A stretch of 64,000 nt of DNA, taken from assembly GCF_031884435.1 (NCBI RefSeq), contig NZ_CP134779.1:5954501-6018500 (forward strand). Reading direction: 5' to 3'. Below, piece after piece: positions 52,156 through 62,655 of the stretch. The translations under genes were made by a program, and so were the position numbers. This DNA comes from Bosea sp. 685 (GTDB taxonomy: Bacteria; Pseudomonadota; Alphaproteobacteria; Rhizobiales; Beijerinckiaceae). Each line of letters starts with the position of its first letter. The first letter of the stretch is position 1. The notes under the pieces were generated by a model. The model had not been told where the DNA came from. It worked only from the letters and a program-made list of their open reading frames with translations, and did no database searches.

Positions 52156-52998
52156 TCAGGATCTCGACGTCAAAAACGCGACGACATCATCCAGAATCGG
52201 CGCGCTCCATTGCAGAAGCCCCGAGAGCGCGGCAACCGTCCCGACGTGGCCGAGACCGGGATAGATCCTAAGCGAGACCGACTTCGCGCCGACTTTCTTC
52301 AGTGCAGCGGCGAGCCGTTCGCTGTTGCGCGGCAGGACCGTCGTATCGTCGGACCCGGTCGCCAGAAGGATCGGCGGGGCGTCGCTGCGGACAAAGTTGA
52401 TCGGTTGCGTCTGCGCCGGATCGCGGGCATTTCCGAAGGCCGCCTTGGTGACGTCGATGTCGAAAGGCAGGAAATCATAGGGGCCCGAGAGCCCGACGGC
52501 GGAGCGGATATCGTTCGAACGCAGCCCCGCAGCGACGAGGTAACGCCTGTCCAGCGTCAGCATCATGGCGTTATAGGCGCCGGCCGAGTGTCCCATGACG
52601 TGAAGCATTCGCGGTGAGCCGCCGAAGCGGGCGATATTGTCGCGCACGAAGCGGAGAGCCAGTGCGCCATCCTCAATGAATGTCGGAAAGCGCACCTCGG
52701 GAACGAGACGATAGTTCGCGATCACCGTGACAAAACCGCGCGAGGCAAACGCTTCACCGACGAATGCATAGGTCTCCTTGGCGCCATTGGCCCAGGAGCC
52801 GCCATAGATGAAGAAGACGACCGGCCTGCCGGTGCCGCCACTTTGCGGGACGTAAATGTCCATTCGCTGCCGCGGGTGGCGGCCGTAGGCGACGTCGCTT
52901 GCGCCATTGGTCAGTACGCCGGGGCGTAACGCGGCGCAGCCGGGAAGGGCTCCCGCAGCGAGCAGTGGAACGATCGCGCGGCGGGAGATTTCAGTCAT
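52156..52998 (-). CDS. Alpha/beta-hydrolase, probable lipoprotein esterase
   Basis: A 280-residue esterase/lipase-type hydrolase. A lipobox LPGC near residue 21 follows a short basic and hydrophobic N terminus with SRRA, suggesting membrane attachment. Oxyanion-hole region is FFIYGGSW (in place of HGG), the nucleophile elbow is GHSAG, the Asp is in TGSDDTTV, and the His in YPGLGHVG. It resembles BD-FAE/carboxylesterase relatives. A sigma-like promoter site (53028-53057) lies 30 nt before the ATG at 52998, matching sites of the nearby sigma/ChrR genes, so it may belong to that regulon. Confidence 0.88.
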   Translation of the reverse strand: MTEISRRAIVPLLAAGALPGCAALRPGVLTNGASDVAYGRHPRQRMDIYVPQSGGTGRPVVFFIYGGSWANGAKETYAFVGEAFASRGFVTVIANYRLVPEVRFPTFIEDGALALRFVRDNIARFGGSPRMLHVMGHSAGAYNAMMLTLDRRYLVAAGLRSNDIRSAVGLSGPYDFLPFDIDVTKAAFGNARDPAQTQPINFVRSDAPPILLATGSDDTTVLPRNSERLAAALKKVGAKSVSLRIYPGLGHVGTVAALSGLLQWSAPILDDVVAFLTSRS

Positions 52999-53027
52999 CA
53001 TGGTCGCCATCAGCTCCAGGGCTTGGC

Positions 53028-53057
53028 TCTATACGTTTGGCCCGACGGGACGGATTT
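53028..53057 (-). promoter_or_regulatory. Candidate ECF-sigma promoter for the esterase gene
   Basis: Minus strand AAATCC, 18 nt, TATAGA, with CG just before the -10 hexamer. Same spacing and CG-TA junction as the site at the sigma gene; the -35 matches the TGATCC form at 4 of 6 positions. Confidence 0.45.
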
Positions 53058-53090
53058 GTGCCTTGGGCGTTTCGAAGCAGCACCCGGATA

Positions 53091-53120
53091 TGAACCGGGG
53101 CGGCTTGCCCTACGTATCTG
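53091..53120 (+). promoter_or_regulatory. Candidate ECF-sigma promoter for the DUF2177 gene
   Basis: TGAACC, 18 nt, TATCTG, with CG before the -10. The -35 differs from TGATCC at one position and the -10 from that at the sigma gene at one. It ends 23 nt before the DUF2177 start. Confidence 0.6.
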
Positions 53121-53143
53121 CAGGCATAGCCCCGGAGGTCATC

Positions 53144-53557
53144 ATGCGCTTCGTCGTCGGTTACATCGCGTTTCTCGTCGCCTTCGGCATCTGCGATGCC
53201 ATCTGGCTCGGCACGATGACGGCCAAACTCTACAGGCCGGCACTGGGCGACCTGATCGTCGAGCAGGTGCGCTACTGGCCAGCAGCGCTGTTCTATTTCG
53301 GCTTTCCGCTCGGTGTGCTGCATTTCGCAATCATGCCCGCTCTGCGAGATGAAAACGCCGGTGCGGCGCTGGTGAATGGCGCCCTGATCGGCTTGTTCGC
53401 CTATGCGACCTATGACCTGACGAATTACGCCACGCTGCGACCCTGGACGCTGACGGTCACTGTCGCCGACATCGTCTACGGCACCGTCGTCGTCGGCTTC
53501 TGCAGCTGGATCGCCTATGAGATCGTGCGTCGCGCCAGCGGTTGGGGCTGGGTCTGA
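53144..53557 (+). CDS. DUF2177 family membrane protein
   Basis: A 137-residue inner-membrane protein with four predicted helices, matching DUF2177 (MRFVVGYIAFLVAFGICDAIWLGTM; FYFGFPLGVLHFAI; GLFAYATYDLTNYATLRPW). Function unknown. GGAGG lies 6 nt before the ATG at 53144, which decides the start within a longer frame. In other alphaproteobacteria DUF2177 genes cluster with sigma/ChrR, CFA synthase, DUF1295, DUF1365 and amine-oxidase genes, as here, pointing to a role in lipid stress response. Confidence 0.88.
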   Translation: MRFVVGYIAFLVAFGICDAIWLGTMTAKLYRPALGDLIVEQVRYWPAALFYFGFPLGVLHFAIMPALRDENAGAALVNGALIGLFAYATYDLTNYATLRPWTLTVTVADIVYGTVVVGFCSWIAYEIVRRASGWGWV

Positions 53558-53582
53558 TCGTTCGATCTCCTCGGCGGAGCCA

Positions 53583-54605
53583 TCAAGCGGGCCGCAGCCG
53601 ATAATGATTGACGCCCCAGGGTTCGCCGCCGGCATGACCGAACAACCCGCTCGTAGCCAGGAAAAAGAGGCGCCAGCGGCGCCGCCACAGCGGCGCGTCC
53701 TCGCCATAGGCCTCGCTCAGGATTGGATCGATGGTCGGCAGGTTGCGGTCGAAGTTCGACAGCCAATCTTCGGCAGTGCGCTGGTAGTGCTCGCCGCTCC
53801 AGCGCCATTCGGCCTCGACGGTGAAGAGATCCGGAAACTGATGCGCCAGAGCCGCGCTCGGCATGATGCCGCCTGTAAAGAAATGCTGTGCGATCCAGTC
53901 GCCGCCATCGCCGATATCGAAACGGTAACAGCCCCGCGCATGGGCGAAGACATGGATGAACAGCCTCCCGTCCGGCTTGAGCCAACCGTGGACGCGGCCG
54001 AGAAGCGCGCGCCAGTTCGCCATGTGCTCGAACATCTCGACCGAGACGACGCGGTCGAAACGCTCATCCGATCCGAAATCGTTCATGTCGGCGGTAACGA
54101 TGCGGAGGTTGTCGAGCCCGTATTCGCGCGCCCGTTCCTCGATGAAGGCGCGTTGCGAGGCCGAATTGGAAACCGAGACGATCCGGGCCGCCGGATAGCG
54201 CCTGGCCATCCACAGCGATAGCGAACCCCAGCCGCAGCCGAGCTCGAGGATATCCTGGCCATCGGCGAGCTGCGCGTGCTCTGCCGTCAGCATCAGCGCA
54301 GTCTCTTCCGCCGTCGCGAGACTATCGCTGGCATTGGCGTAATAGCAGGAGGAATATTTGCGCTGCGGTCCAAGCACCTTGTCGAAGAAGGCGGCTGGCA
54401 CCTCATAGTGCTGAGCGTTGGCGATGTCGGTATGGAGTGCGATCGGAAACTCCGCCATCTCGCGGGCGAAGGCGGCGGTGTCGGCGGATTGCGTGGCCAG
54501 CGAGCGCCCGGTGCGACCGACCAGAGAGGCGATCACCATGCGGCTGATGGCGTCGGGCACGGGCAGCCCTTCGCCCCAGTTCGAGAGCCTCTGCATGAAG
54601 GTCAT
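53583..54605 (-). CDS. CFA synthase-like SAM-dependent methyltransferase (short form)
   Basis: A 340-residue class I methyltransferase with the SAM motif ILELGCGWGSLSLWMARRYP, then VSNSASQRAFIEERA and VSVEMFEHMANW. It is closer in layout to plant coclaurine N-methyltransferase-like enzymes than to full-length CFA synthase: it lacks the N-terminal CFA domain and has YSSCYYANASDSLATAEE just before the SAM site. It is last in the sigma-chrR-DUF1295 operon, with ATGA overlap. A lipid or other small-molecule methyl acceptor is likely; the longer frame upstream (to 54983) lies inside DUF1295 and is not used. Confidence 0.88.
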   Translation of the reverse strand: MTFMQRLSNWGEGLPVPDAISRMVIASLVGRTGRSLATQSADTAAFAREMAEFPIALHTDIANAQHYEVPAAFFDKVLGPQRKYSSCYYANASDSLATAEETALMLTAEHAQLADGQDILELGCGWGSLSLWMARRYPAARIVSVSNSASQRAFIEERAREYGLDNLRIVTADMNDFGSDERFDRVVSVEMFEHMANWRALLGRVHGWLKPDGRLFIHVFAHARGCYRFDIGDGGDWIAQHFFTGGIMPSAALAHQFPDLFTVEAEWRWSGEHYQRTAEDWLSNFDRNLPTIDPILSEAYGEDAPLWRRRWRLFFLATSGLFGHAGGEPWGVNHYRLRPA

Positions 54606-55405
54606 GGCGTCGCTCCTTTCGGCGGCTTCGGGATCAGCGCGCTGGTTCGATTCTGATAGGCCCGATAGGCCGCGCCGTGCTTGGCGAGCATGTGCTCCTC
54701 CAGAGGGGGGATACCGGAGATGCGTGTGAGCAGCAGTGTCATGCAGGCCGGCGCCAACAGAGCAAGCCAGCCCCAGGGATAGGAAACTCCGAGTGCGACG
54801 ATCGCGTAAGAGCCCCAGAGCACGCATTCGAAGAAGTAGTTCGGATGACGTGACCAGCGCCACAATCCGCGATCGCAGACGCCACCCGTTCCCGAGCGGG
54901 CGAAGGCACGCAGTTGCCGATCCGCGACGGCACCGCCTGCGAGGCCGATGGCGAAGACAGAAACACCGATGAAATCCTGCCAACCCAAGGGGGGCGCTGG
55001 GTTATGCGCAGCCAGAACGATGCCGAGCGCCAGCAGAATGCTGACCAGCGCCTGCATGTGAAGCAGCCGGACCATCTGTCGGGGTGCATCGCTGCCCCAG
55101 TCGCGCTTGAGCTTCGCGTAGCGCGGATCCTCGGTGATAGTGCTCGTACGCTGTGCGATGTGCAGGCCGAGCCTCAGCGCCCAGGCGAGCGCGAGCCCGG
55201 CCACCAGCAAACGTCGCGACATCGGCCCGGCGCCGAAGGGCAACAGCGCACCGGCGAAGCCGGTCGCGCCGAGACCAAAGGTCCAGATCACATCGATCCA
55301 GCCGGAATTGCCGGTGCGGCGTTCGATCAGCGTTGCCAGCGCCATGAAGGCGGACATCGCCACGCCCGTGAAAACGGCGGCCATGGCGAAGGAAGTGACG
55401 GTCAC
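54602..55405 (-). CDS. DUF1295 membrane protein (steroid 5-alpha-reductase/isoprenylcysteine methyltransferase fold)
   Basis: A 267-residue inner-membrane protein with about six helices. DUF1295 signatures are WIDVIWTFGLGATG, DPRYAKLKRDWG and the C-terminal LWRWSRHPNYFFECVLWG, a cofactor-binding region shared with steroid reductases. It overlaps chrR and the methyltransferase gene by 4 nt on each side. It probably reduces or modifies a lipid; the substrate is unknown. Relatives recur beside CFA-like methyltransferases. Confidence 0.9.
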   Translation of the reverse strand: MTVTSFAMAAVFTGVAMSAFMALATLIERRTGNSGWIDVIWTFGLGATGFAGALLPFGAGPMSRRLLVAGLALAWALRLGLHIAQRTSTITEDPRYAKLKRDWGSDAPRQMVRLLHMQALVSILLALGIVLAAHNPAPPLGWQDFIGVSVFAIGLAGGAVADRQLRAFARSGTGGVCDRGLWRWSRHPNYFFECVLWGSYAIVALGVSYPWGWLALLAPACMTLLLTRISGIPPLEEHMLAKHGAAYRAYQNRTSALIPKPPKGATP

Positions 55406-56028
55406 AGCCGCACCAGCGGCTGCAGCAGCCGTCCGAGCCAGCCCTGGAACAGCACATTCCCGGTCATGGCGACGATGCAGGTACAGCCCTCGACCGGGTC
55501 GACGCGCGGCGTGTGATCATGATCGGAATCGGCTTCGTCGAAATCCCCGGCCGCATAGCGCCCGTATTGATGCTCATAGGCTCCCGACAGGATCGTGGTC
55601 CATTCGAGGCCACTATGTTTGTGGTGCGGCAATGCGATGCCTGGCCCGGCGCGCAGCATGAACACGCGTGCTTCCGCACCGGGAACCTCGATGCGCCGCA
55701 TGGCAATCCGGATGCCGATCGGCCGCCAGGGGCCGAATGCGTAGGGACGCAGAACCCCGGGCAACCCCGGCTCGCCCCTTGGCGAAGCCGTATCGAAGCC
55801 TGGCGTGCCAGGCTCGACCAGCCGCGAATAGGACGGCCCTGCATCCATCGAGACGGGCTCGATTGCATCGAGGAGCGCACCCTGCACAGCCTGCAGTTCC
55901 TGCACGCGCCGCCAGCTCTCGTAATCCATCTCGACATGAGCCGCGACGACCACCGCAAGGCCTTCGTCGAGTTGCCCCGCGGCGAAGGACGCCAGCATTT
56001 CGTCGGTCGGACGATGCGCGACGCTCAT
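55402..56028 (-). CDS. chrR: ChrR-type anti-sigma factor with cupin domain, lacking the CxxC zinc ligands
   Basis: A 208-residue anti-sigma factor that holds its ECF sigma factor inactive. The N-terminal zinc anti-sigma domain aligns with Rhodobacter ChrR: His5 and His31 are kept, but the positions of Cys35 and Cys38 are Asp35 and Ser38 (HVEMDYESW). The C-terminal cupin keeps a metal-type pattern (PHHKHSGLE, about 135-143). It overlaps the sigma gene by 4 nt, as in rpoE-chrR pairs that respond to singlet oxygen and organic hydroperoxides. Loss of the cysteines suggests a different metal arrangement or a zinc-independent fold. Confidence 0.9.
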   Translation of the reverse strand: MSVAHRPTDEMLASFAAGQLDEGLAVVVAAHVEMDYESWRRVQELQAVQGALLDAIEPVSMDAGPSYSRLVEPGTPGFDTASPRGEPGLPGVLRPYAFGPWRPIGIRIAMRRIEVPGAEARVFMLRAGPGIALPHHKHSGLEWTTILSGAYEHQYGRYAAGDFDEADSDHDHTPRVDPVEGCTCIVAMTGNVLFQGWLGRLLQPLVRL

Positions 56029-56612
56029 CGCAGATCCTCCAGCTTGCCGCGCAGATGCGACAGTGCCAATCGCAGCCGCGACTTCACGGTCCCGAGCGGG
56101 ATGGCGAGGCGGTGAGCGACGTCCTGGTGGCTGAAGCCTTCGAGGAACGCCAGTTCGACGACGCGATATTGGTCGGGCGAGAGCTGCGTCATTGCAGCCC
56201 GCACCCGCACATCACGTTCCGCTCCGGAGAGGGTCTCGTCAGGACGTTCAGGTCTTTCTTCATCCAAAATCTCGTAAACTTGGGACAATCGCGACCGTGT
56301 CTCCCGGCGAGCGATGTCGATGCGCAGATTGCGCGCTATTGTCGCGATCCAGGTCGATGCGCTGGCTTTCGAAGGGTCAAACAATGCCGCCTTGCGCCAG
56401 ACAGCCAGCAAGGCCTCTTGCGCGACCTCTTCAGCCAGCTCGGCTGGCGTGCCGCCACGCATGAGCAGGCCCTTCACGCGTGGCGCGAAATGGTCGAAAA
56501 GAGCAGCGAATGCGGCCCGGTCACCCGAGCGCGCAATCGCAGCAATCAATGTGTTGGGGTCGAACAAGACGAAGAACCGACCTCCTTGCGCTGCAGCTCC
56601 CGCCTTGCGCAT
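56025..56612 (-). CDS. rpoE: ECF sigma factor, RpoE/ChrR-controlled type (ECF11-like)
   Basis: A sigma-70 family ECF factor. Region 2 is DRAAFAALFDHFAPRVKGLL with AEEVAQEALLAVWRKAALFDPSKASASTWIATIARN; region 4 is QYRVVELAFLEGFSHQDVAHRLAIPLGTVKSRLRLALSHL. It matches R. sphaeroides RpoE, which activates the singlet-oxygen response. The frame is open to 56699, but a sigma-type promoter at 56650-56679 puts the transcript start near 56644, so ATG at 56612 (195 residues) is preferred. It leads a four-gene overlapping operon with chrR, DUF1295 and a methyltransferase. Confidence 0.9.
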   Translation of the reverse strand: MRKAGAAAQGGRFFVLFDPNTLIAAIARSGDRAAFAALFDHFAPRVKGLLMRGGTPAELAEEVAQEALLAVWRKAALFDPSKASASTWIATIARNLRIDIARRETRSRLSQVYEILDEERPERPDETLSGAERDVRVRAAMTQLSPDQYRVVELAFLEGFSHQDVAHRLAIPLGTVKSRLRLALSHLRGKLEDLR

Positions 56613-56649
56613 GCCATCGACAGTCAGGGCGAGAGTGGCAACCATAGGC

Positions 56650-56679
56650 GAGATACGCTTTGCCCATGGCGCTGGATCA
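56650..56679 (-). promoter_or_regulatory. Candidate autoregulated ECF-sigma promoter upstream of rpoE-chrR
   Basis: Minus strand TGATCC (56674-56679), 18 nt, TATCTC (56650-56655), with CG directly before the -10. The -35 is the known R. sphaeroides sigma-E form. It lies 38 nt upstream of ATG 56612, as expected for autoregulation. Confidence 0.65.
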
Positions 56680-56711
56680 CCCGTTGCAGGCCTCGGCAAT
56701 GCTCGGTCGCA

Positions 56712-57080
56712 TTACTGAGCGGCCTTCCAGGTCACATCCCGGCAGATCAGCCGACCGACGATGCAACCGCGCGTGGTCAAGCCACCGGCTGCCGTTTTGA
56801 TCGTCATCGCATAGCTCCAGTCGCGCTTGGGATCGTAGGCCTCTCCCGAAAAGCTTCCGTCGGCCTGGCGCGACAGGCTCATGATCAGCTTATCGCCAAC
56901 GGCCTCACCTGTGCTGGTATCGCCGATCCAGAGATTGGTCGCACAGATCTTGTCACCGCATGGCGCGATGCGCACGCGCGCGTTGCCATCGTCGCGCAGC
57001 CACGTGCCGTCGAGATCCGCGGCGGCCGCGCTCGCCACAGACAATGATGAAAAGGTAAGGGCGAGCAGAAGACGGTTCAT
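56712..57080 (-). CDS. DUF2147 family secreted protein
   Basis: A 122-residue protein with a Sec signal peptide (MNRLLLALTFSSLSVASAAAA) and a DUF2147 lipocalin-like barrel: DLDGTWLRDDGNARVRIAPCGDKICATNLWI and GCIVGRLICRDVTW. Four cysteines may form disulfides. AAGGG lies upstream of the ATG at 57080; the open frame to 57140 is not needed. Same strand as, and 37 nt downstream of, the membrane protein gene at 57118, so probably cotranscribed. Function unknown. Confidence 0.88.
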   Translation of the reverse strand: MNRLLLALTFSSLSVASAAAADLDGTWLRDDGNARVRIAPCGDKICATNLWIGDTSTGEAVGDKLIMSLSRQADGSFSGEAYDPKRDWSYAMTIKTAAGGLTTRGCIVGRLICRDVTWKAAQ

Positions 57081-57117
57081 GGCGATGTCCCTTTCCGCGA
57101 ATGCCTCTCTTCTACGC

Positions 57118-57711
57118 TCAGCCACCGTGATCGGTTTCATCGGGGCGCGAAATCGTGCCGAGGCGTCCGGCGAAGAGCCAGCCGATCAACACGGTCAGGG
57201 ATGCGGCGCTTAAGAAATTCAGGCGCTGCAGGGCCGCATATTCGCCCGGGTCGTAGAGGTGAAGCGGCGCGCCCAGAAGCGCAGCCGGCGGCAGATAGAC
57301 GATGAAGGCCAGCGCCGCGAAGCCCAATGCAAAGGCGCGTTCGCAATGTCGAAACAGCAGCAGCGCCAGCATCAGGCACGGAAACAGGAAAACTTCGACC
57401 CCTGAGCTCGGACCGAAAGCAACGCGGCAGAGCAGGGTGTTGCCGATGCCGGCGACGAGCAGCAGCGCACGTCCGAAAAGCGGGCTGCGCCGCATCGCGG
57501 CCGGAACGGCGGCAAAGAAGGGCGTCGACAGGAAGGTGACGTAGGACGGCGAGATGACCGGCGAGACCGCCCAATAGATATAAAGCGGATAAAAAGGCTG
57601 GTTCGAGACGATAACCAGCGCGACGGTGTTGGCGATCGCAGCGCGCGGATCGGGATGCGCGGCATAGGCACTGACCGCCGCGATCACCTGCTTCAGACCT
57701 GTCCTCGACAT
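57118..57711 (-). CDS. Hypothetical integral membrane protein
   Basis: A 197-residue protein with about five predicted helices and no recognised domain beyond membrane topology (TVALVIVSNQPFYPLYIYWAV; CLMLALLLFRHC; LTVLIGWLFAG). It is first in a leftward unit with DUF2147 and is preceded by a TGACCC/TAAGCT site like the sigma promoter. Conserved relatives occur near RpoE-ChrR loci in other alphaproteobacteria, so a lipid-stress role is plausible but unproven. Confidence 0.75.
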   Translation of the reverse strand: MSRTGLKQVIAAVSAYAAHPDPRAAIANTVALVIVSNQPFYPLYIYWAVSPVISPSYVTFLSTPFFAAVPAAMRRSPLFGRALLLVAGIGNTLLCRVAFGPSSGVEVFLFPCLMLALLLFRHCERAFALGFAALAFIVYLPPAALLGAPLHLYDPGEYAALQRLNFLSAASLTVLIGWLFAGRLGTISRPDETDHGG

Positions 57712-57745
57712 AGCCGATCTCTCCCGGACGTCCGCACCTGTTGGC

Positions 57746-57775
57746 AGCTTACGCAGCAGGACCGGCCATGGGTCA
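57746..57775 (-). promoter_or_regulatory. Candidate ECF-sigma promoter for the membrane protein/DUF2147 unit
   Basis: Minus strand TGACCC (57770-57775), 18 nt, TAAGCT (57746-57751), with CG before the -10. It ends 35 nt before the ATG at 57711. One mismatch in the -35 to TGATCC. Confidence 0.6.
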
Positions 57776-57807
57776 CAGGGCCGGCGTGTTTTTCAGTGCC
57801 TTGCGAC

Positions 57808-57837
57808 AAATCCAGACCGGCACGTGCTGCGTATACC
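57808..57837 (+). promoter_or_regulatory. Candidate ECF-sigma promoter for the amine oxidase-DUF1365-cfa operon
   Basis: AAATCC (57808-57813), 18 nt, TATACC (57832-57837), with CG before the -10. The ATG at 57842 would sit about at the transcript start, which supports 57863 as the start of the downstream gene. Confidence 0.5.
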
Positions 57838-57862
57838 CGTCATGAAAAGCGGAGAGGCGGGG

Positions 57863-59200
57863 ATGGAAAGGGCGCAGGTCCAGTCGAAGAGGATCGCGGT
57901 GATCGGCGCCGGCATCTCCGGCCTGTCCTGCGCGTGGCTGCTCGGACAAGCGCATGACGTCGTGCTGTTTGAGGAGGCGCCTCGCCTTGGCGGGCACGCC
58001 AACACGGTTCGCATCACCGGACAAGGCAGCGAGACTGCGGTCGATACCGGTTTCATCGTCTACAACGAGGCGACCTATCCCAATTTCATAGCTCTGATGG
58101 CGCATCTTCGCGTCGCGACACAGCCGACCGAGATGTCCTTCGCCGTCTCCCTCGATGGCGGCCGGCTCGAATACAGCGGCACCAGCATCACCGGCTTGTT
58201 CGCGCAGCGACGCAATCTGGTCAGTCCGCGCTTCTGGGCGATGTTGCAGGACGTCAGTCGCTTCTACCGAAACGCTTCGAGAGATGTGCTCACAGGCCAT
58301 GCCGAGGACATTTCGCTCGGCGATTATCTTACCGCAGGCGGATATGGCGTCGCCTTCCGCGACGATCATCTCCTCCCGATGGCTGCGGCGATCTGGTCGG
58401 CACCGTGTTCCGAAATACTGTCCTACCCCGCTGCGGCATTCCTTCGCTTCCACCATAATCATGGGCTGCTGCAGCTCACCGACCGGCCGGCGTGGCGCAC
58501 CGTGACCGGCGGCAGCGCCGTCTATGTCGAGAGGTTGCGCAGCGCCTTTTCGGGCCAGGTCAGGATCGGCTCGCCCGTGCGGCAGGTTCGACGTGCGCCC
58601 AATGAGGTCGTGGTCCTGGGTCATGGCTGGAGCGAGCGCTTCGACGAGGTGGTCTTCGCCACTCATGCCGACCAGACACTCGCGATGCTGGCCGATCCCG
58701 GCACGGAGGAAACGGAGACACTCGGCGCCTTCCGCTACAGCCGCAACCGCGCGGTGCTGCATAACGACACGAGCCTGATGCCTCGGCGCCGGCGAGCCTG
58801 GGCGAGTTGGAACCATATCGGCGATCGCAGCCGGCCCGAGGCTGCCTGCGCCGTCACCTACTGGATGAACCGGCTTCAAGGCTTGCCGGAAGAACGGCCC
58901 CTCTTCGTCACGCTCAACCCGCCGGACGGGCTGCGCGAGGCCACCATCCTCCATGAGGAATCCTACGAGCATCCGCTGTTCGATGCCGCAGCGCTCGACG
59001 CTCAGGCGCGGCTCTGGTCGCTCCAGGGCGCGCGGCGCAGCTGGTTCTGCGGCGCCTATTTCGGGTCGGGCTTCCACGAGGATGGACTGCAAGCCGGGCT
59101 AGCGGTCGCCGAGGCGCTCGGCGGCGGCCGTCGGCCCTGGCGTGTTCCCAACGAATCGGGACGCATCCCGCTGCCCGAGCAACGGGAGCAGGCGGCGTGA
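57863..59200 (+). CDS. FAD-dependent amine oxidase-like oxidoreductase
   Basis: A 445-residue flavoprotein of the amine oxidase/phytoene desaturase-like family. The FAD motif is IAVIGAGISGLSCAWLLG with a downstream FEEAPRLGGHANTV. Relatives near RpoE-ChrR in R. sphaeroides (RSP_1091 type) are members of the sigma-E regulon and have been tied to furan fatty acid formation. GGCGGGG directly precedes the ATG at 57863. The stop overlaps the DUF1365 start (GTGA). It probably oxidises an acyl chain made by the CFA-type methyltransferase. Confidence 0.88.
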   Translation: MERAQVQSKRIAVIGAGISGLSCAWLLGQAHDVVLFEEAPRLGGHANTVRITGQGSETAVDTGFIVYNEATYPNFIALMAHLRVATQPTEMSFAVSLDGGRLEYSGTSITGLFAQRRNLVSPRFWAMLQDVSRFYRNASRDVLTGHAEDISLGDYLTAGGYGVAFRDDHLLPMAAAIWSAPCSEILSYPAAAFLRFHHNHGLLQLTDRPAWRTVTGGSAVYVERLRSAFSGQVRIGSPVRQVRRAPNEVVVLGHGWSERFDEVVFATHADQTLAMLADPGTEETETLGAFRYSRNRAVLHNDTSLMPRRRRAWASWNHIGDRSRPEAACAVTYWMNRLQGLPEERPLFVTLNPPDGLREATILHEESYEHPLFDAAALDAQARLWSLQGARRSWFCGAYFGSGFHEDGLQAGLAVAEALGGGRRPWRVPNESGRIPLPEQREQAA

Positions 59201-60000
59201 GCTGGAATTCTGCCCTCTATGTCGGATCGGTACGACACCATCGGTTTCGGCCGAAGCCACATGCCTTGGCCTATCGCGTCTTCTGGATGCTGCTTGATCT
59301 CGACGAAATCGATGCGCTCGCTGCAAATCTGCGTAGCTTCTCGCACAATCACTTCAACCTCTACGCCTTTCGCGACACCGACTATGGCGACCGCAGCGGT
59401 CGGCCTCTGCGGGCGCAGATCGGCGACGCTCTGGCCAGCGCGGATATCGCTTGGGACGACGGCTCCATCCGCCTGCTGACCATGCCGCGCATCCTTGGCT
59501 ACGCCTTCAACCCGTTCAGCGCCTATTTCTGCTATCGCCGCGACGGCAGCCTCTGCGCCACGGTCTATGAGGTGCACAACACCTACGGCGAGACCCACAG
59601 CTACGTCGCGCCGGCGACCTCCACAGGGGAGCCGCTGTGGCAGGAGGCCCGCAAGGTCTTCCACGTCTCGCCCTTCATGGGGCTGGCGATGCACTATGCC
59701 TTCCAGGTCATGCCCCCTGGGGACCAGGTCTCGATCGCGATCGACGGTCACGACGCCGCAGGGCGCCTGATCGCCGCGACGATGAGCGGCAAACGCGCCG
59801 AGATCAGCGATGCAACGCTGCTGCGGCTGCTCGCGACCCACCCACTGCTTACGCTGAAAGTCACCGCCGCCATCCACTGGCACGCGTTGCGGCTGCTGAT
59901 GAAACGCATTCCGTGGCGGCGGCATCCGGCGCCGCCGGAGCTGCCATTCAGCCCTGGCAGCGCCGTGAGGCCTCATGCGAAAGGACCGATGCAGCGATGA
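59197..60000 (+). CDS. DUF1365 family protein
   Basis: A 267-residue DUF1365 protein with no known biochemical activity. Family markers are GSVRHHRFRPKPHALAYRVF, MPRILGYAFNPFSAYFCY and EVHNTYGETHSYV. It starts with GTG overlapping the previous TGA and ends overlapping the CFA synthase start, so it is translated as part of a three-gene unit. Genes of this family recur between an amine oxidase and CFA synthase in many proteobacteria, implying a joint role in fatty-acid modification. Confidence 0.93.
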   Translation: MSWNSALYVGSVRHHRFRPKPHALAYRVFWMLLDLDEIDALAANLRSFSHNHFNLYAFRDTDYGDRSGRPLRAQIGDALASADIAWDDGSIRLLTMPRILGYAFNPFSAYFCYRRDGSLCATVYEVHNTYGETHSYVAPATSTGEPLWQEARKVFHVSPFMGLAMHYAFQVMPPGDQVSIAIDGHDAAGRLIAATMSGKRAEISDATLLRLLATHPLLTLKVTAAIHWHALRLLMKRIPWRRHPAPPELPFSPGSAVRPHAKGPMQR

Positions 60001-61232
60001 GCCAACACGAGACCGAACGCGGCCTCCCGATCACCGAGCAGTCGCTCGCGCTGCCGCGCGGCATCGGCCTCTCGCGCTGGTTCCTGCGCCGTCTGCTTTC
60101 GCGCATCGTCATTGGCCGCCTGACCGTCATCACGCCCGAGGGCGAGCACCTCCACGGTGGAAGCGCCGCTACCAGCCCCCAGGCCACGCTGATCCTGAAA
60201 AATTGGCGCGCGATGCGGCGCGTGCTGCTCGACGGCGATATCGGGCTGGCCGAAGCCTATCGCGACGGCGAGCTGGACACGCCCGATCTCACTGCGCTGA
60301 TCGAACTCGGCGCGCGCAATGACGCGACGCTGCGCCGGTTGATTTCGGGCGCATGGCCGACGCGCCTGTTCAATCGCTTTCGGCATGTGCTGAACGCCAA
60401 TACCCGCACGGGCAGCCGCCGCAACATCATGGCGCATTACGATCTCGGCAACGACTTCTACGGCCAGTGGCTCGACGCTAGCATGATGTACTCCTCGGCA
60501 CTTTACGAAACGCCGGCGGAGACGCTCGAAGCGGCGCAGCAGCGCAGGCTCGACAGGATCGTCGCCATGCTGGGTCTTTCAGGAGGCGAACATGTCCTCG
60601 AAATCGGCTGCGGCTGGGGCGCCCTGGCCGAACGGCTGGCCCGGGAAGGCTGCCGCGTAACCGCAATCACCCTGTCGCCGGCGCAGCTGGAGATAGCGCG
60701 GCAGCGCGTTGCCAAGGCCGGCCTCGCTGAGCGCGTCAGCCTGCACCTGCAGGATTATCGCGACATCTCCGGCGAATTCGACCGCATCGTTTCGATCGAG
60801 ATGATCGAGGCGGTCGGGCACGCCTATTGGCCATCCTACTTCGCGACGCTGCGCCGTTCGCTCCGGCCCGGCGGCTGTGCTGTGCTGCAGGCAATCACGA
60901 TCGACGACACTCTGTTCGAGGCCTATCAGCAAGGCACCGATTTCATCCAGCGCTACATCTTTCCCGGCGGCTGCCTGCCATCCGTCCCGGCATTGGTACA
61001 CGAAGCCGAAGGAGCGGGCTTCACCGTGGCCGAGCAACTCGACTTCGGCGAGAGCTACGCCTTGACCCTGAAGGAGTGGCGCCGGCGCTTCCTGGAGCGC
61101 TGGGCCACAGTCGCGCAGTTTGGCTTCGACGAGCCGTTTCGCAGGCTGTGGGAGTTCTATCTCTGCTATTGCGAAGCCGGCTTCCGGGCCCGCACGATCG
61201 ACGTCAGCCTGATTGCCTTGCGAGGTCGCTAA
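59997..61232 (+). CDS. Cyclopropane-fatty-acyl-phospholipid synthase family protein
   Basis: A 411-residue full-length CFA synthase family enzyme that transfers a methyl or methylene from SAM to unsaturated fatty acids in phospholipids. The SAM motif is VLEIGCGWGALAERLARE; active-site region elements include SMMYSSALYE, FIQRYIFPGGCLPS and the C-terminal FYLCYCEAGFRARTID. Some members methylate without ring closure (UfaM of R. sphaeroides, furan fatty acid pathway). ATG at 59997 overlaps the DUF1365 stop; the long frame upstream to 59637 is not used. Confidence 0.92.
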   Translation: MSQHETERGLPITEQSLALPRGIGLSRWFLRRLLSRIVIGRLTVITPEGEHLHGGSAATSPQATLILKNWRAMRRVLLDGDIGLAEAYRDGELDTPDLTALIELGARNDATLRRLISGAWPTRLFNRFRHVLNANTRTGSRRNIMAHYDLGNDFYGQWLDASMMYSSALYETPAETLEAAQQRRLDRIVAMLGLSGGEHVLEIGCGWGALAERLAREGCRVTAITLSPAQLEIARQRVAKAGLAERVSLHLQDYRDISGEFDRIVSIEMIEAVGHAYWPSYFATLRRSLRPGGCAVLQAITIDDTLFEAYQQGTDFIQRYIFPGGCLPSVPALVHEAEGAGFTVAEQLDFGESYALTLKEWRRRFLERWATVAQFGFDEPFRRLWEFYLCYCEAGFRARTIDVSLIALRGR

Positions 61233-61364
61233 CATACGTGCCGTCCGCTGATATTGAAAGCGACGGAAGTGCTCCCCTGACGCGATGGTTCCGAACGGGA
61301 CGCAGAGTTCCGCGCCAAGCTCTCTTGTCAGCCTGCCTGAAGCCGACAGACGAATTTGGTATGG

Positions 61365-61677
61365 ATGGTCACGATCTCAGCCTTCGCGATCAAGCTCGTC
61401 ATCTGCCCCCCCGATGGCGTGCAACCGCTACGGCTATCCGGGACATCTGAAGCCCTGGACCAACTTCGGCGAATTCGAGGTGAATGTCCTCCCGGAATAC
61501 AAAGCCTTGCACGATGCCGGCTACAACATCATCGCCGATGGCATGTGCAACCGCGGTCGCAGCGGCACGGACAGCGGCGGCGTCACCGGCCACGGTGTTC
61601 TCGAATACCGCGATGTCATCGGCTCGTTGCGTTACGCGAAGTCCCACCCAGATACGAAGGACGCGCCGAAGGCCGTG
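61365..61677 (+). pseudogene. Broken alpha/beta-hydrolase remnant
   Basis: A fragment recognisable as an alpha/beta hydrolase: MACNRYGYPGHLKPWTNFG, then DAGYNIIADGMCNRGRSG (degraded form of a YDMRNHGRSG motif), GHGVLEYRDVIGSLRYAKSHPDTKD. The upstream part (ISAFAIKLVICPP) is in another frame, joined at a run of seven C (61406-61412), and the 3' half including the catalytic serine region is missing, running into the end of tadC. It is a truncated, frameshifted remnant. Confidence 0.75.
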
Positions 61678-62655
61678 TCACTGCCATTTGAAAACCTGGA
61701 TCAGCGCCGGCGTCAGGATGACGATGAACAGCACCGGCAGGAAGAACAGGATCATCGGCACGGTCAGCATGGGCGGCAGCGAAGCCGCCTTCTTCTCCGC
61801 CATCATCATGCGCTGGTCACGGCTCTCCTGGGCCAGGGTCCGCAGAGCAGTGCCAAGCGGAGTACCGTAGCGCTCGGCCTGGATCAGGGCGGTCGAGACC
61901 GATTTGACGCTTTCAAGCCCGGTGCGTTGGGCCAGATTCTCATAGGCCTGCCGCCGCTCCGCCAGATAGGCGAGCTCGGCCGTGCACAGCGCGAACTCCT
62001 CCGCGAGCGGTACGGACTGCGTGCCGATCTCGCCGGCGACCTTGCGACAGGCGTGCTCCATCGACATGCCGGATTCGACGCAGATCAGCAGCAGATCGAG
62101 AGCGTCGGGAAAAGCCATCCTCATCGAAGCCTGGCGCTTACCGATCCGATTGGACAGGAAGACTTCCGGCGCCTTGATGCCGAGATAGGCGGCGGCGATC
62201 GCAATCCCGACCTTGACCATGAAAGGCTGACCGAAATCGTTCAGGACGAAAACGTAGAACAGCGTGAACAGGAAAAGCCCGATCGGCGCCACCAGGCGGA
62301 AGAACAGAAAGCCGACTTCAGCCTGTGGGCCGCGATAGCCGGCCATCAAGAGCCGCTGCTTCGCCGTCTCAGTGCCAAGCCAGTCGCCGAGCTTAAATTG
62401 GTCGACGACCCGGCGCATATACTGTTTCGGCTCCTGGCGAAGCGTGACCTTGTCCTTCTGCCGGTTGAGCCTGTCGCGCTCGCGGGCGCGGATTTTCTCG
62501 CGCTCGCTGGCAACGTTCTTCATGCGCTTTTGCAGGCCGTTGCCTTCCGTCAGCGGGATTGCCAGCGTCAGCACGGTCGCGGCGGCAGCGACAGCGACGA
62601 GAATGGACAACAGGAATTGTCCGTCGGCGAGCTTGTCTGCGATGAGGGCAATCAT
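61678..62655 (-). CDS. tadC: Tad pilus inner-membrane platform protein TadC
   Basis: A 325-residue type II secretion F-domain protein, the TadC partner of TadB in the Flp pilus basal body. Membrane helices lie near residues 12-34, 120-165 and 295-320; the F domain shows MRMAFPDALDLLLICVESGMSMEHACRKVAGEIG and AERYGTPLGTALRTLAQESRDQR. It follows tadB with a 10-nt gap in the same direction. Together with the TadA ATPase it drives pilin assembly. Length normal. Confidence 0.95.
   Translation of the reverse strand: MIALIADKLADGQFLLSILVAVAAAATVLTLAIPLTEGNGLQKRMKNVASEREKIRARERDRLNRQKDKVTLRQEPKQYMRRVVDQFKLGDWLGTETAKQRLLMAGYRGPQAEVGFLFFRLVAPIGLFLFTLFYVFVLNDFGQPFMVKVGIAIAAAYLGIKAPEVFLSNRIGKRQASMRMAFPDALDLLLICVESGMSMEHACRKVAGEIGTQSVPLAEEFALCTAELAYLAERRQAYENLAQRTGLESVKSVSTALIQAERYGTPLGTALRTLAQESRDQRMMMAEKKAASLPPMLTVPMILFFLPVLFIVILTPALIQVFKWQ

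Follow-up and report, generated by a model that had tools for sequence, protein, structure and literature searches.

The closest described relative of the locus reported here is the sigmaE-ChrR (ECF11) system of Rhodobacter sphaeroides, in which a self-regulated operon pairs an extracytoplasmic function (ECF) sigma factor with the cupin anti-sigma factor ChrR. According to a 2019 review, rpoE-chrR and genes for furan fatty acids belong to its core regulon (PMC6852236); in Rhodobacter a photolyase gene is described as a core member and rpoHII as directly targeted (PMC5507510, PMC6852236). For PSPTO_1043 of Pseudomonas syringae the promoter consensus is given as TGATCC-N16-CGTA, variants such as aGATCC and TGAgCC being listed with it, and RpoE2 of Shewanella is reported to use the same elements (PMC5507510, PMC4336711). 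The locus is an island of eleven genes spanning 52156 to 61232 of a 64-kb window, the stretch of 64,000 nucleotides analysed here, in the 6.8-Mb genome of Bosea sp. 685 (contig NZ_CP134779.1, positions 5,954,501 to 6,018,500).

The island shares with the R. sphaeroides system an ECF sigma gene, a ChrR cupin anti-sigma gene, putative furan-fatty-acid targets, a predicted self-regulated operon and an RpoE-type motif, and with the P. syringae and Shewanella RpoE2-ChrR systems the promoter TGATCC-N16-CGTA. Unlike R. sphaeroides, Bosea has its targets in one island with six sites and a ChrR without the anti-sigma zinc ligands, and the island adds a MASE7-like protein, DUF2177, DUF2147 and an esterase. 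In P. syringae and Shewanella, by contrast, the targets lie at several chromosomal places, and no MASE7-like protein is named in the parts of those accounts cited here. With high confidence, the island represents a compact Bosea regulon of the ECF11 sigmaE-ChrR type, a known kind of system. Its variant parts are a membrane protein predicted to be receptor-like in fold and a ChrR whose aligned sequence lacks the zinc cysteines. Among the papers listed on ECF11, DUF2177, ChrR, furan fatty acids and Bosea, none names this island in its title or abstract opening.

Promoter sites of the sigma-chrR island

The sigma gene (56025..56612, minus strand; start codon uncertain by eye, ATG at 56612 or TTG at 56567) encodes an RpoE/ECF11-like protein with Sigma70_r2 and r4_2 domains, whose best match in the PDB was R. 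sphaeroides RpoE (2q1z_A, E 3.5e-38). The product of chrR (55402..56028, minus strand) scored 146.8 bits against TIGR02451, above the cut-off of 124.5, and its structural model matched 2q1z/2z2s (TMt 0.81-0.83), predicting an intact fold. The nearest ChrR was that of Bosea psychrotolerans (92% identity) among 21 related loci and that of Bosea sp. BE125 (95%) among the database proteins listed.

Six units make up the island, in the order esterase (minus), DUF2177 (plus), sigma-chrR-DUF1295-CMAS1 (minus), DUF2147 (minus), membrane protein (minus) and amine oxidase-DUF1365-CMAS2 (plus). The initial annotation had placed five like-spaced promoter sites in front of these genes, with an 18-nt spacer and CG before the -10 element. 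All five were present in the sequence as quoted and their spacing is equivalent to N16-CGTA, but the count was incomplete, as a sixth site precedes the DUF2147 gene. A search of the window with [TAG][GA]A[N]CC-N16-CGTA returned seven matches, all within 52901-57900, whereas spacers of 8-15 and 17-24 gave 0-2 matches each. The seven were the six promoter sites and one antisense match inside chrR (AAATCC-N16-CGTATTGA, 55541-55568, plus strand), which recurs in four related loci (L031, L032, L034, L039) and probably reflects coding constraint.

Because the pattern was derived from these very sites, their own genome offers no independent test of it, and relatives were used instead. Twenty-one related loci were found by their ChrR, with the window excluded, and the 140 bases before the starts of the six units were taken wherever the gene and sufficient sequence were present, giving 112 regions. 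The predicted autoregulatory site of the sigma-chrR-DUF1295-CMAS1 operon, TGATCC-N16-CGTATC (56652..56679, minus strand), had a counterpart in 20 of 21 loci. Counterparts were likewise found for TGAACC-N16-CGTATC before DUF2177 (53091..53118, plus; 18 of 21), GAAACC-N16-CGTAGA before DUF2147 (57111..57138, minus; 16 of 17), TGACCC-N16-CGTAAG before the membrane protein gene (57748..57775, minus; 16 of 17) and AAATCC-N16-CGTATA before the amine oxidase operon (57808..57835, plus; 19 of 20). The esterase site, AAATCC-N16-CGTATA (53030..53057, minus), was matched strictly in 10 and in relaxed form in 13 of 16 loci.

In total, the N16 motif was found in 99 of the 112 regions, compared with 0-3 regions for each of the 16 other spacers (8-15, 17-24) and an expectation of 0.3% from mononucleotide shuffles. 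Elsewhere in the same loci 11 matches occurred in 795 kb counted on both strands, one of which (L049) precedes a relocated CMAS2 gene. When one of the eight fixed positions was allowed to differ, a site was present in 109 of 112 regions, the remaining three being the esterases of L047, L049 and L050. The esterase is the least conserved island member; in 5 of the 21 loci a close copy was not detected. Identity between loci was 0.40-0.49 in the spacers and 0.89-0.99 in the motif letters; the loci are related and are not 112 independent events, but the diverged spacers beside kept motif letters indicate selection on the motif. The proposal that the sites are hard to explain by chance was thus borne out, and chance was rejected as their source on the strength of conservation in the relatives.

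The -35 and -10 letters differed by unit. TGATCC stood before sigma (20/21 loci), TGACCC or TGAGCC before the membrane protein (16/17), GAAACC before DUF2147 (14/17), TGAACC before DUF2177 (16/21) and AAATCC before the amine oxidase (16/20), while the esterase -35 varied between loci. On the -10 side, CGTATC was found at sigma (15/21) and DUF2177 (20/21), CGTAA or CGTAG at the membrane protein (17/17), CGTAGA at DUF2147 (15/17), and CGTATA at the amine oxidase (17/20) and esterase (11/13). Unit and -35 letters shared 2.07 bits, against 0.37 in shuffles that ignore relatedness, none of 2000 of which scored as high. In distant genera plain TGATCC was frequent at the corresponding promoters, for example those of the amine oxidase in L192 and L195 and of DUF2177 in L192 and L203. 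Judged from these sequences, the unit-specific letters most likely place the promoters in a constant order of strength.

A genome-wide search had been proposed in the initial annotation. Exact TGATCC-N16-CGTA had 3 matches in the genome; WRAHCC-N16-CGTA had 35, 6 of them in the island, against 58 for the reversed-pattern control; and NRANCC-N16-CGTATM had 24, 4 of them in the island, against 22. The degenerate pattern was derived from the sites themselves, and its Poisson value of 7.6e-11 is accordingly post hoc. Outside the island no excess over the reversed control was seen in either comparison, and the regulon is therefore called local at this search sensitivity; scattered or weaker members are possible.

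For the exact and WRAHCC patterns, those outside matches that could be assigned to a locus were checked for a reading frame downstream, and eight were inspected closely (L001, L002, L006, L172, L173, L178, L179, L185). L001 was set aside as a further member, its exact TGATCC site lying just 3 bases 5′ of a 366-codon frame and too near that start. L006 was also set aside: its site is about 100 bases 5′ of an ABC-transporter ATPase frame but lies between two same-strand genes and has a repeat-like spacer. By eye, the spacers of L005, L006, L023 and C2:6484022 of the Bosea genome resemble one another (CCGTCATCCCGG-like), a pattern reminiscent of a dispersed repeat. A photolyase domain match outside the window (G000:C2:4087404-4087885) is split into two adjacent parts that lie in separate open frames, perhaps through a frameshift.

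Gene content and the candidate furan-fatty-acid operon

By domains and gene order, the plus-strand operon follows the order UfaD-UfaO-UfaM: a flavin amine-oxidase-family protein (57863..59200, UfaD-like), a DUF1365 protein (59197..60000, UfaO-like) and CMAS2, a CMAS-type methyltransferase (59997..61232, UfaM-like). We take UfaO to be a DUF1365 protein. Downstream of the ufaM-like gene a decayed alpha/beta-hydrolase-like reading was seen by eye (61285-61700, plus strand). UfaM is described as methylating cis-vaccenate, UfaD as a desaturating enzyme and UfaO as introducing oxygen; in Rhodopseudomonas palustris the three genes are RPA2571 (ufaD), RPA2570 (ufaO) and RPA2569 (ufaM), and FufM (RPA0924) adds a second methyl group (PMC7380195). 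The Bosea island resembles R. palustris in its order of flavoprotein, UfaO-like protein and methyltransferase and in the existence of a second CFA-type methyltransferase. The difference is that this second enzyme, CMAS1 (53583..54605, minus strand; a CMAS-type SAM-dependent lipid methyltransferase), sits in the sigma-chrR operon next to the DUF1295 membrane protein gene (54602..55405, minus strand). CMAS1 may be the FufM counterpart.

The remaining units, assigned by domain matches, encode a DUF2177 membrane protein (53144..53557, plus strand), a DUF2147 protein (56712..57080, minus strand) and an alpha/beta-hydrolase esterase (BD-FAE, Abhydrolase_3; 52156..53010, minus strand) whose N-terminus resembles a lipobox (LPGC) by eye. 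The esterase had been regarded as a non-standard member of such regulons. That view did not hold, since the P. syringae core regulon, which also includes a diguanylate cyclase, contains an esterase/lipase gene, PSPTO_4843, with TGATCC-N16-CGTA (PMC5507510); orthology is not implied. In the lineage of L049, L050 and L051 neither the membrane protein gene nor DUF2147 was found next to sigma-chrR, and CMAS2 adjoins DUF2177 and has its own AAATCC/AAATCT-N16-CGTAT site.

The sigma factor, ChrR, promoter form and gene content fit ECF11 (PMC6852236, PMC5507510, PMC4336711, PMC7380195, as far as these sources describe it), and together with the conserved sites they uphold the proposed local sigma/ChrR lipid-stress regulon and its match to the known TGATCC form with N16. 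In a wider sample of the class, 54 of 89 loci had the loose N16 motif within the 480-1000 bases upstream of chrR, and 52 of 89 had exact TGATCC there at a spacer of 15-17.

By analogy with Rhodobacter, ChrR would keep the sigma factor inactive until photo- or peroxidation of the membrane led to its loss. The freed factor would then read the six local TGATCC-like-N16-CGTA promoters, its own included. The expected output would be methylated and putatively furan fatty acids, made by the UfaM-UfaD-UfaO-like operon, the second lipid methyltransferase and DUF1295, and DUF2177, DUF2147, the esterase and the stand-alone six-helix membrane protein would be produced alongside. The gene set probably reshapes membrane lipids under oxidative stress; a singlet-oxygen or hydroperoxide signal, carried over from the homologues, would be the presumed trigger.

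ChrR without anti-sigma zinc ligands

The anti-sigma zinc ligands of R. sphaeroides ChrR are given as H6, H31, C35 and C38, and those of the cupin domain as H141, H143, E147 and H177 (PMC6852236). Alignment of the Bosea ChrR to this protein placed R6 (with H5 beside it), H31, D35 and S38 at the anti-sigma positions, so that the ZAS motif Hx3Cx2C, to which H6 is added in R. sphaeroides ChrR, was not found in it; the cupin ligands were kept (H136, H138, E142, H172). Both cysteines were missing in all 22 clade members (the window and the 21 loci), and position 6 was not histidine in 21 of them, the exception being L046. Among the matches listed from 500 database homologues, HxxxCxxC within the first 60 residues was found in none of 120. 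Ninety further loci of the class were examined (30, and 60 of the other listed matches): 71 had H31, C35 and C38, 15 lacked both cysteines, 3 had one, and L137 aligned badly. L137 was also the only one of 112 rows without the cupin ligands.

With L137 left out, the tree required at least 12 changes in zinc-motif state, at least 2 of them forced by well-supported branches, and was poorly resolved; a single origin of the loss is not supported. A link between the loss and the presence of the island's membrane protein was also rejected, as the protein occurs together with the zinc motif in G112 and G119 but without it in G114 and G017, and in L049-L051 the motif is missing while no gene of this kind adjoins chrR. 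For anti-sigma domains in general, groups that mix zinc and non-zinc members have already been described (PMC7406223), and this type of change is therefore not new. In 14 other loci (L205-L215, L217, L218, L220) a different type of ChrR homologue was observed, also devoid of the zinc motif. In 13 of them a same-strand TGATCC-N16-CGTA site ends 68-145 bases before the matched start, and no island-type sigma gene was found beside the homologue; this type may belong to a separate system.

Several points weigh against the ECF11 reading. The Bosea ChrR scored 178 bits against the NCBIfam equivalog for cadmium/peroxide/UV ChrR, under the cut-off of 300, and cannot have the R. sphaeroides-type anti-sigma zinc site in the same form. 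The strict motif is missing in 13 of 112 regions, six of them esterase regions. Unlike in R. sphaeroides, no full nine-letter site was found at the RpoH locus (best 8/9; two TIGR02392 matches in the genome, one above cut-off) or at the one PF00875 photolyase place (L190, L191; best 7/9, other photolyase families not having been searched). The Ufa assignments are based on domain and order, and the regulation and chemistry proposed here are predictions drawn from sequence, conservation, gene families and predicted folds. One alternative is that the motif reflects chance or coding constraint, or marks the sites of another ECF factor. The recurrence of the antisense chrR match would speak for it, as would the fact that 4 of 21 loci (L034, L035, L038, L039) contain a further ECF sigma gene, 36-38% identical to the island-type sigma gene and some 6 kb away from it, but the single spacer with diverged letters, the near-constant distance to the starts and the presence in 99 of 112 regions make it scarcely credible. 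It could also be argued that ChrR without its anti-sigma zinc is a weak or dead inhibitor and the regulon constitutively on in Bosea, since zinc is described as required for sigmaE inhibition by R. sphaeroides ChrR (PMC6852236) and positions 6, 35 and 38 are R, D and S here. ChrR is nevertheless conserved through the clade (59-92% identity), retains its cupin ligands and predicted fold, and has parallels in RseA and RskA, anti-sigma domains that inhibit without a zinc motif (PMC7406223), and constitutive expression is accordingly improbable.

The stand-alone membrane protein

The gene at 57118..57711 (minus strand) had been proposed as a unit of the regulon outside its standard membership. Its site was present and is now also found to be conserved, in 16 of 17 loci. 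The predicted six-helix fold of its product matched the adenylyl-cyclase-type membrane domain of Rv1625c. Against MASE7 (PF20967) it scored 18.7 bits, under the gathering cut-off of 26.2; 34 of 38 family members matched MASE7 at E up to 1 (best 7.2e-10), and PF20967 is a database annotation of close homologues, P0123 among them. It differs from the class III adenylyl cyclase membrane domains (Rv1625c/Cya, AC9; MASE7) in having no attached cyclase or other output domain. P38, G99 and L171 are invariant and look structural.

Modelled on those domains, the protein would bind lipid, and two roles were considered. As an effector it would bind lipid and assist the Ufa enzymes, either presenting their vaccenyl, methyl or furan acyl chains or shielding them. 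The fold and the linkage fit this role, the gene following CMAS1 and facing DUF2177 in other genera, as expected of a pathway partner, but domain and profile searches found no match to an enzyme family and the invariant residues fit a helper no better than a receptor; the assignment is tentative. As a sensor or relay, which is rather unlikely on present evidence, it would bind C18 acyl chains as an adenylyl-cyclase membrane domain might (vaccenate, its methylated or furan derivatives, or oxidation products) and pass their state to ChrR or a ChrR protease. The fuller proposal of a free-standing adenylyl-cyclase-type lipid receptor, made by the regulon, that reads C18 acyl state (vaccenate, methylated and furan forms, oxidation products) and controls turnover of the zinc-less ChrR is a long shot. 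If true, it would describe a membrane-to-cytoplasm lipid-sensing circuit in which signal lipid and receptor are both products of the regulon.

The 2019 review lists as open the route from a membrane reactive-oxygen signal to cytoplasmic ChrR turnover, and describes what exactly the anti-sigma zinc does in the response as unknown (PMC6852236). Against that background, the zinc-ligand loss is useful in that an entire clade has it fixed while the ECF11 regulon around it is conserved. The conserved promoter variants, six in all, offer a ready set for determining how the -35 letters grade the output of a single ECF factor. With a ChrR apparently lacking the zinc cysteines and a candidate lipid-receptor domain in the same regulon, Bosea would be a natural experiment on both questions, and the membrane protein could provide the missing connection from damaged membrane lipids to the regulon switch.

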